Source: Bacteroidales bacterium (lineage in GTDB: Bacteria > Bacteroidota > Bacteroidia > Bacteroidales > UBA12077). From it: DNA of 36,427 nucleotides. Below are positions 21,925-28,083 of the stretch, piece by piece. The notes under the pieces are model-generated. The model had not been told where the DNA came from. It saw only the letters and a list, made by a program, of their open reading frames with translations, and did not search any database. The DNA lies in contig JAKSCO010000166.1 of assembly GCA_022360575.1 (NCBI GenBank), positions 1-36,427 of the forward strand. The letters run 5' to 3'. Made by a program: the position numbers and the translations under genes. The first letter of the stretch is position 1; each line of letters begins with the position of its first letter.

Positions 21925-24543
21925 TCAGAGCCCAATATGCTTTTTTATTTCGTTTAATTTATTCAAAGCCTCTACTGGCGTTAGATTATTGATGTCTAAG
22001 TTTTTAATTTCATCTCGTATTTGAGATAGTACAGGATCATCTAACTGGAATATTGTTGTTTGAAAACCTTCTCTTTTTTTTGCAATTTCATCTACTTCTT
22101 TCGAGATTGATTTTTTATTTTCTGTTTTTTCTAAATCTTTTAATATTTCGTTAGCTCTTTTCACAACACTATTTGGCATTCCGGCCATTTGAGCTACATG
22201 TATTCCGAAACTATGTTCGCTTCCTCCGCGTTTTAATTTTCGTAAGAAAATAACTTTATCGTTAAGTTCTTTAATAGATACATTATAATTTTTTATCCGA
22301 TTAAATGATTTTTCCATTTCGTTTAGCTCGTGATAATGAGTAGCAAAAAGAGTTTTTGCTTTAGCTTGTGGATGCTCGTGTATATATTCGGCCATAGCCC
22401 ACGCAATTGAAATTCCATCGTAGGTACTTGTTCCCCTACCAATTTCATCGAGAAGAATTAAGCTTCGTTGCGAAATATTATTGAGTATGCTTGCTGCTTC
22501 GTGCATTTCGACCATAAAAGTTGATTCGCCTTGTGAAATATTATCCGAAGCCCCTACTCTGGTAAATATTTTATCTACTAATCCGACTTTGGCTTCGGCA
22601 GCAGGCACAAAACAACCTATCTGAGCTAGAAGAACAATTAAAGCAGTTTGTCTTAACAATGCGGATTTACCCGACATATTAGGTCCGGTAATAACTATAA
22701 TTTGTTGTTGTTCGCTATCTAAATAGACATCGTTAGAAATATAAGACTCACCTATTGATAACATTTTTTCGATTACGGGATGACGCCCTTCTTTAATATC
22801 AATAACATCGGTAGAATTAATTTCTGGGCGGACATAGCTATTTTCGTTTGCAATAATCGAAAAAGAGAGCAAACAATCGAGCTGTGCAATTAAAGAAGCA
22901 TTAAGCTGTATGGCCGATATATAATCTTCTAAACTACATACTAAATCGAAAAATAATTTTTGTTCTAATTCGAAAGCTTTTTCCTCGGCTCCTAATATTT
23001 TTACTTCGTACTCTTTAAGCTCTTCGGTAATATAGCGTTCGGCACTAACAAGCGTTTGTTTTCGAATCCACTCGGGCGGAACTTTATCTTTGTGAGTGTT
23101 TCGCACCTCTATATAATAACCAAATACATTATTGAAACTTATCTTTAACGAAGGAATTCCTGTTCGTTCTATCTCGCGTTGTTGTATTTGTAAAAGATAA
23201 TCTTTGCCGGAGTATGCCAAATTACGATATTCGTCGAGTTCGGTAGAAACTCCATTAGCAATATAATTTCCTTTATTTAGTAATGCCGGAGGATCTTGGG
23301 CTATTTCTTTCTCTATCCTATCGCGAATATTAAGACAAGGATTTAATCTGTCGGCAATTTTTATTAAGGCAGGATTTTCGGAGTTAGTACAAGCTTCTTT
23401 TATTGGCTCGATAGCTGTTAATGCGTTTTTAAGTTGTACCACTTCGCGAGGATTTACCCTCCCTGCGGCTACTTTCGAAATAATACGTTCGAGGTCGCCA
23501 ATTTCTTTTACATGTTCGGCTAATAGGGCTTTAAAATCGGCATCTTTATTTAGATGTTCAACTACATCATGGCGTTCGTTGATTGGCTTTTCGTCTTTTA
23601 ACGGGAGAGCAATCCATCGTTTTAATAATCGAGCTCCCATTGGAGAAATAGTACGATCAATAACATCAACAAGTGTTTTGGCATTTTCGTTTATCGAAAC
23701 AAAAAGCTCAAGATTGCGAATTGTAAATTTATCTAACCAAACATATTTATCCTCCTCGATTCGCGAGATGGTTGATATATGTTGTAATTTTTCGTGTTGT
23801 GTAATTTCGAGATATTGCAATATTGATCCGGCAGCAATTGTACCTAATTGTAGTCCATCGACACCAAATCCTTTTAATGAATTTGTTTGAAATTTTTTCA
23901 ATAATTTCTCGGTTGTATTTTCGGGAGTAAACACCCAATCGTCGAGTTTGTATGTATAAAATTTATCGCCAAATAGTTCTTTAAATTTTGAGGTTTTGCT
24001 TCGCTCGTATAATACTTCTTTGGGTTGAAAACTATTTAATAATTTATCGATATAATCGAAATTTCCTTCGGCAGTAAGGAATTCTCCTGTTGAGATATCA
24101 AGGAAAGCAATTCCTGCAATATTTTTTTCGATATGTACTGATGCTAAGAAATTATTTTCGCGATGCTCTAATACATTATCATTAAATGAGACTCCCGGAG
24201 TTACCATTTCGGTTACCCCTCTTTTTACAATTTTTTTTGTTTTCTTGGGATCTTCTAATTGTTCGCAAATAGCAACACGTTGTCCGGCGCGAACTAATTT
24301 AGGCAAATAGGTATCAATAGCATGATGAGGAACTCCAGCTAGTTCGACAAATGAGGCAGCTCCATTTGCTCGTTTGGTTAATGTAATTCCGAGAATTTCT
24401 GAGGCTTTGATAGCATCTTCGCCAAAAGTTTCGTAAAAATCTCCTATCCTAAATAACAAAATAGCATTAGGATGTTTTCTTTTGATCTCATAATATTGTT
24501 TCATTAGAGGAGTCTCTACGTGTTTCTTTTTCTTTTCTGCCAA
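21925..24543 (-). CDS. mutS: DNA mismatch repair protein MutS
   Basis: The mismatch-recognition ATPase of methyl-independent mismatch repair, working with MutL on newly replicated DNA. The 872-residue length is typical. The mismatch-reading motif F-Y-E is at 36-38 in [10 protein letters not shown], the same numbering as E. coli MutS. The connector, lever and clamp domains follow. The ATPase has Walker A GPNMSGKS with Lys626, Walker [13 protein letters not shown], and the H-loop ATHYHEL. A helix-turn-helix dimer region ([11 protein letters not shown]) and a C-terminal tail complete it. All motifs are intact. It has its own promoter box and is followed by the tRNA cluster on the same strand. 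Confidence 0.98.
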
Positions 24544-25236: not shown

Positions 25237-27411
25237 TTAGCTTAGGATATCTCTAAATTCTATATCTTGTGAGGCTAAAACAAACACTTTGTTGGTTATA
25301 TTTTTTGTATTTTCTTTCAGCGAATTATAATATGAGTTAAAATCTTTGTCAGGAGTTTTTAATCCTAACATTACCATATCGCTTTTTTTCGATTCTTCTT
25401 CAAGAATATCCCAAAACCTTCGTCCGTTTGATACCAACACTTGGGTTTTGAAATTGATACGCATTTCTTTTAAAATATTTCTTAGATTTTGATGTGCACC
25501 TATGGCTGCTTCTTGAGATGGAACAGCCATTTTTATGAAAATACTTACATGTTGCCAGTGAGGAGTATGTTTCATTAGATATCCCAGAATCATCATTAAT
25601 CCTCCGTTTCCTTTTAAACCTCCCCACCAAATGTCAATTTTTTTACATTGTTTGTAATCGAGTAAGAAATTATTCTGTAATATAATTACATTGCGTTTCG
25701 ATTTAAAAAAATGGGTAATCATTTCGGAGTAAGCTGCATTATGGCTTGATTCTTCGGTATCGCCAAGCAATATTGTGTTGGGAACTAAAGAACCCAATCC
25801 GTAGGAATTTACAAGTTGAATTGATCCTTCAAAAGGATTGTTCGATCGAGTTACTCTAACCAATGTTCGTATGTTTTTTTCGCTTAAGTATGAAGAAATT
25901 TGTTTTTCGTAATCAGGAACTTTTTCTTGAGAAACAGTGCATTCGGGCAAGATTGTAGCAACAGTAATAAGACCTTTTTCTTGAACTATTCCGTATGCAA
26001 AATCGATTAAGTGCCATCTTTTTGTGGGCATTCCGGATAATACTAAAATATTAGGACGCCAGCTTTTAGGATTTGATTTTGTATCTAAGCGTAAAAGAGC
26101 ATAACGAGCTACTTGTAAAAGCATTCCGCTACGAACATCTCCCCAAGTGGTTTTTAGTCGGCGGCGGCGAAGCCAGGTATAAACTAGCATTATAAAGAAA
26201 ATAGCAATAATAGTTGCTATTGCATTAATTAAAAACATTACAGCAAAACATCCTATTGTGCCCAAAAATGAGAGGATCCAGTGGACTTTGAATTTAGGTC
26301 GGAACGAAGGACTTTCTAATAATTTTTCTAAACCCGCAGTGATATTTAATACTCCGTAGGTTGTTAAAAAAAACATAGTAAGAATAGGGGCTATAACATT
26401 TAAATTCCCGACATATACTAATCCCAGAGTAATAATGATTGTAAAGATTGTAGCCCAACGAGGGATTTGTTCGGGACCTGACCCTCTGCTTAAAAAAGCT
26501 AATTGTTTGGGTAAAACTTCGTCTTGAGTTAATGCTTGTAATACACGAGGAGCTCCAAGTAAACTCCCTACGGCACTTGAGAGTGTAGCTCCCCAAACTC
26601 CTAGAAGAATAGCTCCTCCCCAAAAAGCTACTTTTTGCATAACAAGCGAATCTTCGATTAATGTTTTTTCATCAACCCAGAAAGCTAAAATTACAGGGAT
26701 TATCATGTAAATAACAAATCCCACACCGACAGCTAAAAATGTTCCTCGAGGAATTGATTTTGATGGATTTTTTAAATCTCCAGACATATTAACCCCTGCC
26801 ATTATTCCGGTGACCGCAGGGAAAAAGACAGCAAAAACTTTCCAAAAATTTTCGGTATGTTCGGGTTTGATTGTTAAAATATTGGTTTGTATTTCGCCTA
26901 TAGGATTACCCATGAAAAGAGAAATAAGAGAAAGAATTATAACTCCTAAAATAAGAAATTGAGCGCGTATAGCTGCTTTTGTTGAAAATAAAGAAAGGAT
27001 ACCTAATAGTATTGTCGTAATAATTCCGACAAATTTTATATTTAACGAAGGAAATATAGCAACTAAACTTTCGGAAAATCCGATTATGTATAATGCAACA
27101 GAAAAAGCTTGAGCTAGATACAGAGGTATTCCTACGGCTCCTCCTATTTCAATCCCTAAAGAACGGCTAATCATGTAATAAGCTCCACCTGTTTTTACCG
27201 GAGTATTAGTTGCTATTGCAGCAATAGAGAGTGAGGTAAGGAAAGTTATTGATGTTGATAGAACAACTATTAATATTGTTCCGATAAGACCTACATTTCC
27301 GACAACCCATCCAAATCGGAGATACATGATAACACCTAAAATAGTTAGTATTGATGGGGTAAATACTCCTCCGAAGGTATTTAAACGGCTTTGTGTATTT
27401 TGTGTTTTAAT
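25237..27411 (-). CDS. Cation-chloride cotransporter-like (SLC12/APC superfamily) membrane transporter
   Basis: An inner-membrane secondary transporter resembling bacterial members of the Na-K-Cl cotransporter family. About 11-12 membrane helices occupy residues 20-420. Family blocks include GGAYYMISRSLGIEIGGAVG, VFFPAVTGIMAGVNMSGDL and SSAVGSLLGAPRVLQALTQD. A soluble C-terminal domain of about 300 residues follows, with WRPNILVLSG and IDIWWGG...GGLMMILGYL, typical of the SLC12 C-terminus. The only ATG is at 27327, but the frame stays open upstream and the translated residues (NTFGGVFTPSILTILGVIM) are a conserved N-terminal part of the first helix. No ATG, GTG, TTG or CTG lies between this ATG and the in-frame pdxH stop. 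I therefore place the start at the ATT at 27411 (724 aa), 30 bases after the pdxH stop. Substrate unknown. Confidence 0.85.
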   Translation of the reverse strand: MKTQNTQSRLNTFGGVFTPSILTILGVIMYLRFGWVVGNVGLIGTILIVVLSTSITFLTSLSIAAIATNTPVKTGGAYYMISRSLGIEIGGAVGIPLYLAQAFSVALYIIGFSESLVAIFPSLNIKFVGIITTILLGILSLFSTKAAIRAQFLILGVIILSLISLFMGNPIGEIQTNILTIKPEHTENFWKVFAVFFPAVTGIMAGVNMSGDLKNPSKSIPRGTFLAVGVGFVIYMIIPVILAFWVDEKTLIEDSLVMQKVAFWGGAILLGVWGATLSSAVGSLLGAPRVLQALTQDEVLPKQLAFLSRGSGPEQIPRWATIFTIIITLGLVYVGNLNVIAPILTMFFLTTYGVLNITAGLEKLLESPSFRPKFKVHWILSFLGTIGCFAVMFLINAIATIIAIFFIMLVYTWLRRRRLKTTWGDVRSGMLLQVARYALLRLDTKSNPKSWRPNILVLSGMPTKRWHLIDFAYGIVQEKGLITVATILPECTVSQEKVPDYEKQISSYLSEKNIRTLVRVTRSNNPFEGSIQLVNSYGLGSLVPNTILLGDTEESSHNAAYSEMITHFFKSKRNVIILQNNFLLDYKQCKKIDIWWGGLKGNGGLMMILGYLMKHTPHWQHVSIFIKMAVPSQEAAIGAHQNLRNILKEMRINFKTQVLVSNGRRFWDILEEESKKSDMVMLGLKTPDKDFNSYYNSLKENTKNITNKVFVLASQDIEFRDILS

Positions 27412-27441
27412 AGTTGTAAAATTAAAAGGTTGATAATTACT

Positions 27442-28083
27442 TTAAGGTGCAAGTCTACGTATTTTCCAGATATTTTTATCAAAAAAAAATTCAATTCTAT
27501 CATGTAATCTGTTTGGGCGTCCTTGCCAGAATTCAATTATTGTAGGATATAAAATATAACCACCCCAATTATCAGGTCTTTGTATTGTTTTACCCGCAAA
27601 TTTCCGCTCAAATTCTTTATTTTTTTCTTCGAGATATTTCCGATTTATGATTTCATTGCTTTGTTGGGATGCCCACGCTCCAATTTTTCGATTTTCATTT
27701 CTGGATTGGAAGTATTTATCAGATGTCTCAGAGGTTACTTTTTCTATTTTCCCTTCAATCCTTATTTGTTGTTCGAGTTTTGCCCAAAAAAATAATAAAC
27801 TCCCATAATTGTTTTCTGCTATTTGGATTCCTTTTTTACTGTTGTAGTTTGTATAAAAAATAAATCCATTGTTTTTTATTTCTTTTAATAAAACAATTCT
27901 GGATGATGGTTTAAGATTTTTTCCTACTGTAGATAAGCTCATGGCGGTAGGATCTTTAATTCCTGAATTAATAGCATTATTGATCCATTTATTAAATTGC
28001 CTAAAAGGATTTGAATCTACATTCTCTTTCCCAAAATCTTTTTGTGTAAAATCTTTGTTGATATCATCATATCTCTTATTCAT
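27442..28083 (-). CDS. pdxH: Pyridoxamine 5'-phosphate oxidase
   Basis: A cytoplasmic FMN enzyme that oxidises pyridoxine or pyridoxamine 5'-phosphate to pyridoxal 5'-phosphate, the last step of PLP synthesis and salvage. The 213-residue length is standard. Recognisable blocks are NPFRQFNKWINNA, the FMN-binding SRIVLLKEIKNNGFIFYTNY, the RIEGKIEKV strand, IGAWASQQS, and the C-terminal signature WGGYILYPTIIEFWQGRPNRLHDR ending in RRLAP. It is complete, and its TAA is normal for the family, so readthrough into the next gene is not needed. It lies 20 bases after yihY and 30 bases before the cotransporter start in the same operon. Confidence 0.96.
   Translation of the reverse strand: MNKRYDDINKDFTQKDFGKENVDSNPFRQFNKWINNAINSGIKDPTAMSLSTVGKNLKPSSRIVLLKEIKNNGFIFYTNYNSKKGIQIAENNYGSLLFFWAKLEQQIRIEGKIEKVTSETSDKYFQSRNENRKIGAWASQQSNEIINRKYLEEKNKEFERKFAGKTIQRPDNWGGYILYPTIIEFWQGRPNRLHDRIEFFFDKNIWKIRRLAP

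Follow-up and report, generated by a model that had tools for sequence, protein, structure and literature searches.

The window analysed here is a stretch of 36,427 nucleotides from a Bacteroidales bacterium in which an SLC12-type cotransporter gene lies on the minus strand in the order yihY-like, pdxH, cotransporter and mutS, and the question that this locus raises is where translation of the cotransporter begins. The stop-to-stop frame of the gene (27441-25237, minus strand; 734 codons) begins right after the pdxH stop (TAA, 27444-27442, minus strand) and contains no ATG, GTG, TTG or CTG ahead of an internal ATG at 27327, which sits within the sequence GVIMYLRFGW. A first-pass annotation had claimed that these four codons are missing between the in-frame pdxH stop and this ATG, which the frame scan bears out; upstream of the TFGG codons, as far back as the pdxH stop, they are absent from every frame. 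The relevant features, all on the minus strand, are listed below (AUH stands for AUU, AUC or AUA; TM1 for the first transmembrane segment).

25237-27411, minus strand: coding sequence of the SLC12/KCC-type cotransporter read from ATT, 724 amino acids plus stop
27325-27327, minus strand: internal ATG within TM1, the first canonical codon of the frame and the likely automated start call
27328-27408, minus strand: N-terminal tail and first half of TM1, which would be lost with an ATG start (judged by coding constraint and alignment to KCC2)
27406-27408, minus strand: second codon AAA (14 of the 16 AUH members have AAA and two have AAT)
27409-27411, minus strand: proposed start codon ATT (AUU); the homologous codon is ATT, ATC or ATA in 16 of the 17 genomes of the clade described below
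27412-27441, minus strand: intergenic leader of 30 nt between pdxH and the ATT, without a Shine-Dalgarno sequence and without ATG in any frame
27442-28083, minus strand: pdxH (TIGR00558, E 5.3e-77), directly upstream of the cotransporter in 13 of 13 genomes of the genus

The cotransporter passes the curated Pfam cut-offs for both AA_permease (E 2.3e-51; 175.4 versus 24.6 bits) and SLC12 (E 3.8e-20; 72.8 versus 27 bits), and phmmer aligns it to KCC2 (6m23) with an E value of 8.2e-90. It misses the NCBIfam cut-off of the K-Cl cotransporter model TIGR00930 (471.1 versus 953.4 bits) and is a bacterial relative of that subfamily, not a member. A Foldseek search with its predicted model (mean pLDDT 66.7) matches the NKCC1/KCC fold (best hit 9c0h, E 1.1e-29). 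The window gene is thus like the SLC12 cotransporters (NKCC/KCC) in sequence and fold, but unlike them it is bacterial and has a short N-terminal tail; its transport role is predicted. Residues 1-20 of the model have pLDDT below 50, and a helix at residues 21-32 spans the internal Met (residue 29) with low confidence, which is why the KCC2 alignment was preferred over the model around this residue. In the neighbouring mutS gene (21925-24543, minus strand), the first canonical codon is a TTG that immediately precedes AEKKKKH.

Twenty genomes of the genus were surveyed and the 5' end of an orthologue was available in 13 of them, the window included; the other 12 orthologues are 69-83% identical to that of the window over the match. 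Across these 13 genomes, the TFGGVFTPSILTILGVI codons, which lie upstream of the internal ATG, differ by 658 synonymous versus 30 nonsynonymous codon-pair differences, the changes being nearly confined to third positions (0.06, 0.00 and 0.50 per position), and the segment aligns with TM1 of the solved KCC2, in agreement with the earlier claim that the residues before the ATG belong to this helix. Coding constraint this strong shows that the part of TM1 preceding the internal ATG, its first half, is translated. The tail that follows the AUH codon varies freely by comparison (297 nonsynonymous versus 52 synonymous differences in 11 sequences).

Between the last in-frame stop and TM1, 12 of the 13 genomes have no ATG, GTG or TTG, while G016 has a TTG there. 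One position in these 12 genomes is always ATT, ATC or ATA. It precedes the conserved Leu of LNTFGG by 11 codons, or by nine in the window, which has thus lost two codons of the variable tail. The codons around it vary, with the exception of the codon after it, which is AAA or AAT. In-frame stops are found as few as one or two codons before the AUH codon, for example in L008 (TGA AAA ATA) and L009 (TAA GTT ATC). The lack of a canonical start together with an AUH codon at one shared position in 12 of 13 genomes exceeds chance. When four genomes of a second Bacteroidales group are added, the clade comprises 17 genomes, of which 16 carry AUH (ATT in seven, ATC in six and ATA in three) and one carries TTG. 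Within the sequences compared, the absence of a canonical in-frame start in 16 of 17 genomes, together with one near-cognate codon shared by all of these, is shown by the alignment itself. The first-pass annotation had placed the start at the ATT at 27411 and had proposed aligning orthologues at that codon: the alignment has ATG at the homologous codon in none of them, and the ATT is the sole near-cognate codon common to all AUH members before TM1, which makes it a well-supported candidate for the start site. In these counts, L032, L033, L035, L048 and L049, which share all tested 60-mers with L006, L005, L012, L008 and L007, respectively, were counted once, and L142 is the same genome as L034.

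The second group consists of 4 of the 61 genomes examined around a Dysgonamonadaceae MAG in which an orthologue was found. In all four, the open stretch offers no canonical start and reads ATC AAA AAC at the same distance, and their cotransporter is not preceded by pdxH. Aligning their upstream DNA shows TATATTTAC and TATCAAAAAC as the longest two stretches ahead of the tail that are invariant (4/4 genomes each), and the TATCAAAAAC block contains the proposed start (T-ATC-AAA-AAC). The -7 promoter box of Bacteroidota is TAnnTTTG, which the TATATTTAC box resembles, and on this likeness it may be regarded as a candidate -7 promoter element. The box is located at 2980-2988 in L034, near 1466 in L140, near 1449 in L141 and on the reverse strand in L143, with one copy per locus on that strand. 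In the protein tree, the AUH form is one clade apart from L037 (support 99/97; 94/92 with added rows), and the four second-group rows nest within the genus group, with L001, L003 and L004 (96/98), suggesting that the gene might have moved between Bacteroidales lineages with its weak start intact. L066 matched no motif and was left out, and L096 and L097, which missed the first motif, were left out of the tree.

Several other explanations of the missing start codon were considered. The plain alternative raised with the first-pass annotation is that an ATG of the window strain was misread or misassembled, or was recently lost by point mutation. It might be entertained because the assembly behind the window is fragmented (362 contigs); however, 15 further genomes lack a canonical start as well and have ATT, ATC or ATA, and in no case ATG, at the same codon, which leaves this explanation with almost no probability. 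Initiation at the internal ATG at 27327 would yield a protein that lacks the first half of TM1. It would agree with this ATG being the first canonical codon, the one that bacterial annotation would pick, but the strong purifying selection on the upstream TM1 codons and their alignment to KCC2 both speak against it. Conservation of the Met itself does not help this proposal either: it is invariant in 16 of 16 aligned members, and equally so in relatives with an upstream ATG, which points to a structural residue, and we consider a start at this codon very improbable.

The proximity of pdxH offers two further possibilities. Ribosomes finishing pdxH might resume at the AUH codon by termination-reinitiation, such that the weak start functions only within the operon, and the invariable presence of pdxH directly upstream in the genus (13/13 genomes) at a short gap (30 nt in the window) is consistent with this idea. 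However, gap length and frame vary (length modulo 3 is 0 in nine and 2 in four of the 13 genomes), and the four second-group genomes keep ATC AAA AAC without pdxH; there, the upstream ORF ends approximately 190-230 nt before TFGG (in the three genomes with a readable ORF) and the promoter-like box lies in between in all four. The lack of an upstream pdxH together with this conserved box argues against readthrough or obligatory coupling; coupling to pdxH cannot be required in the second group, although it may help in the genus, and as the explanation of the start, reinitiation thus seems unlikely. Programmed frameshifting or stop readthrough from pdxH or another frame, which would make the Ile codon an ordinary internal one, finds some encouragement in the window, where pdxH and the cotransporter are in one frame and one ATG ORF in a different frame overlaps the junction. 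Across the genomes the picture does not hold: 8 of 14 have no ATG ORF of another frame that crosses the stop of the cotransporter frame, and in the remaining 6 such ORFs are placed differently; 4 of 13 have another frame relation to pdxH, and several contain additional in-frame stops in between. Because neither the frame relation nor the crossing ORFs are conserved, this route is disfavoured and has very little probability in our judgement.

Initiation at the AUH codon would take place in an unusual context. None of the 14 leaders examined has any 4-mer of AGGAGG at positions -20 to -4, and no enrichment of A was detected at position -3 (8/14 versus a frequency of 0.52 in 217 ATG genes of G007) or position -6 (4/14 versus 0.45). 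The second codon is AAA in 14 of the 16 AUH members, compared with 21% of the 217 ATG genes, and the 60 nt around the start fold with a mean of approximately -0.9 kcal/mol (14 genomes) versus -3.97 kcal/mol (sd 3.35) for the ATG genes, a low level of structure that may come partly from A/U richness. A leaderless start from a TAATTTTAC motif located 13 nt before the ATT of the window was also considered and set aside, as no equivalent was seen by eye in the other leaders of the genus.

We then asked how special the cotransporter is among the genes of the genus. The infC gene, which encodes IF3, is the textbook case of an AUU or AUA start with IF3 autoregulation, and the first-pass annotation had drawn this parallel. 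The parallel is apt, since infC starts at ATA in all 18 genomes of the genus that have the gene (L099-L116; G000:C62:5541-6038 in the window genome); the genus thus does contain a known AUH start, and it can be recognised. The arrangement differs, since infC has GGAGG 8-9 nt upstream of its start in all 18, despite the rare use of Shine-Dalgarno sequences in Bacteroidota, and the cotransporter lacks such a motif. GGAGG precedes the ATA of Marinilabilia infC (L138) too. In the second group, infC has an in-frame ATG near its start in the three genomes examined, and the starts of infC and the cotransporter are therefore not linked there.

A homology survey drew on syntenic stretches of 11 genomes, with 159 orthologue-bearing ORFs of 150 codons or more in 27 families, and flagged pairs in which both partners have identical residues ahead of their first canonical start. 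The cotransporter was flagged in 39 of 49 diverged pairs and was the only family flagged throughout, whereas 21 of the 24 families with diverged pairs gave none, implying that AUH starts are not general in the genus. Two minor families (flagged in 3/9 and 3/3 pairs) were rejected as AUH cases because they keep TTG and ATG (MKTLKKA), respectively. The TTG family is a lipoprotein-like gene (G007:C8 near base 200, L147) with relatives in G012, G013 and G016; TTG is kept in the four genomes, and identical residues occur upstream of this TTG in some pairs. In G007, a codon-bias survey over 400 kb (289 called genes) placed infC at the top with a score of 19.0, and the runner-up (10.8) appears to be an out-of-frame artefact ahead of a genuine ATG. 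The cotransporter reaches scores of only 0.7-7.9 (13 AUH rows), so that this survey was too insensitive and the homology survey was used instead.

Based on these results, we assign a probability of roughly 0.8 to the reading that translation starts at the AUU at 27411, giving a predicted full-length cation-chloride-cotransporter-like protein, and that this conserved AUH start without a Shine-Dalgarno sequence throttles the transporter, probably via IF3. The throttle is the part that we infer. In the proposed mechanism, the start codon would be kept as AUU, AUC or AUA, preceded by an A/U-rich leader that has little structure and no Shine-Dalgarno sequence and followed by AAA or AAU, fMet-tRNA would initiate there with a third-base mismatch, and initiation would be inefficient because IF3 rejects such complexes. 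The weak start could have been retained because low transporter output is favoured, possibly in an IF3- or growth-dependent manner. Steady non-conversion to ATG, which is a single transition away from ATA, suggests selection for low output. By counts alone, however, the missing ATG does not reach significance: fourfold sites have 9.7% G, and only approximately seven independent third-base changes were counted by eye at the AUH codon. The invariant AT could reflect a kept Ile residue if translation enters by another route. A broader proposal, that Bacteroidota ribosomes, for which Shine-Dalgarno pairing is not the norm, can start at AUH without a Shine-Dalgarno sequence when the codon has AAA after it and a short, unstructured and A/U-rich leader before it, that the clade keeps an AUH setting which couples the transporter to IF3 or growth, and that the gene was transferred with this weak start intact, is tentative and in our view somewhat more likely to fail than to hold.

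Several known systems resemble the cotransporter in part. As in infC, the AUH start is conserved over the genus and rejection by IF3 would be expected, but infC combines its GGAGG with a fixed ATA, whereas the third base drifts in the cotransporter, and IF3 is the product of infC itself and not of the cotransporter gene. Binns and Masters reportedly found in 2002 that the AUU start of E. coli pcnB limits expression, which is similar to the inefficient AUU start limiting protein level that we propose for the cotransporter, although product and phylum differ. In Staphylococcus aureus, cvfC1 (AUU), ccpN (AUA) and citZ (AUA) are described as newly found non-canonical starts, of which those of cvfC1 and ccpN are conserved; output from AUU and AUA starts is put at roughly 10% of that from AUG, with ccpN reaching up to 30% in rich medium, and the starts of infC, cvfC1 and ccpN are tied to an extended Shine-Dalgarno sequence (PMC13009471). 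These genes share the use of a non-canonical AUH start with the cotransporter, but infC, cvfC1 and ccpN have the extended Shine-Dalgarno sequence that the cotransporter lacks, and staphylococci are not Bacteroidota. For Streptomyces sigR, a GTC start repressed by IF3 has been described (PMC5472188). As proposed for the cotransporter, sigR has a conserved non-canonical start that holds the protein down, and it was mis-annotated to a nearby canonical codon; it differs in that the codon is GTC and not AUH, the ribosome-binding site is very extensive and the product is a sigma factor, not a transporter. Considering that the cotransporter lacks a Shine-Dalgarno sequence, it should not be filed with the IF3-discriminated infC/sigR type, only as working like it.

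A conserved AUH start that limits expression is thus already known. Our literature search did not find an AUH start of a Bacteroidota transporter, and what appears to be new after this search is the combination of a missing Shine-Dalgarno sequence, a third base drifting among U, C and A, a cation-chloride cotransporter and a host in Bacteroidota, a phylum reported to lack Shine-Dalgarno sequences naturally (PMC6847099). The AUU, AUA and GTC starts described in the cited parts of PMC13009471 and PMC5472188 lean on strong Shine-Dalgarno sequences, whereas the cotransporter start has none. If real, it raises the questions of how the 30S subunit finds an AUH codon without such a sequence and whether infC is the only Bacteroidota gene under IF3 control. 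Start tables limited to ATG, GTG and TTG would truncate the cotransporter inside TM1, and comparison of relatives at the protein level can reveal non-canonical starts of this kind.

In the wider cotransporter family, 26 of 52 rows have ATG, 12 have GTG or TTG and 14 have none of these, classes that represent codon presence and not proven starts and that, as phylum-wide counts, are a sample among the matches listed. Relatives from Marinilabilia, Cyclobacterium and most Balneolaceae have ATG near the expected place. Judged by the codons available, weak starts recur in the family. An orthologue in a Cryomorphaceae MAG (L037, 2980-5172) has no ATG, GTG or TTG and has an ATT before TM1; it falls outside the clade with weak support and was kept out of the clade count, and it is possibly a second origin of the AUH start. 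In a separate branch (L067-L070, L087-L089 and L091; support 100/99), only GTG or TTG is available in all eight rows.
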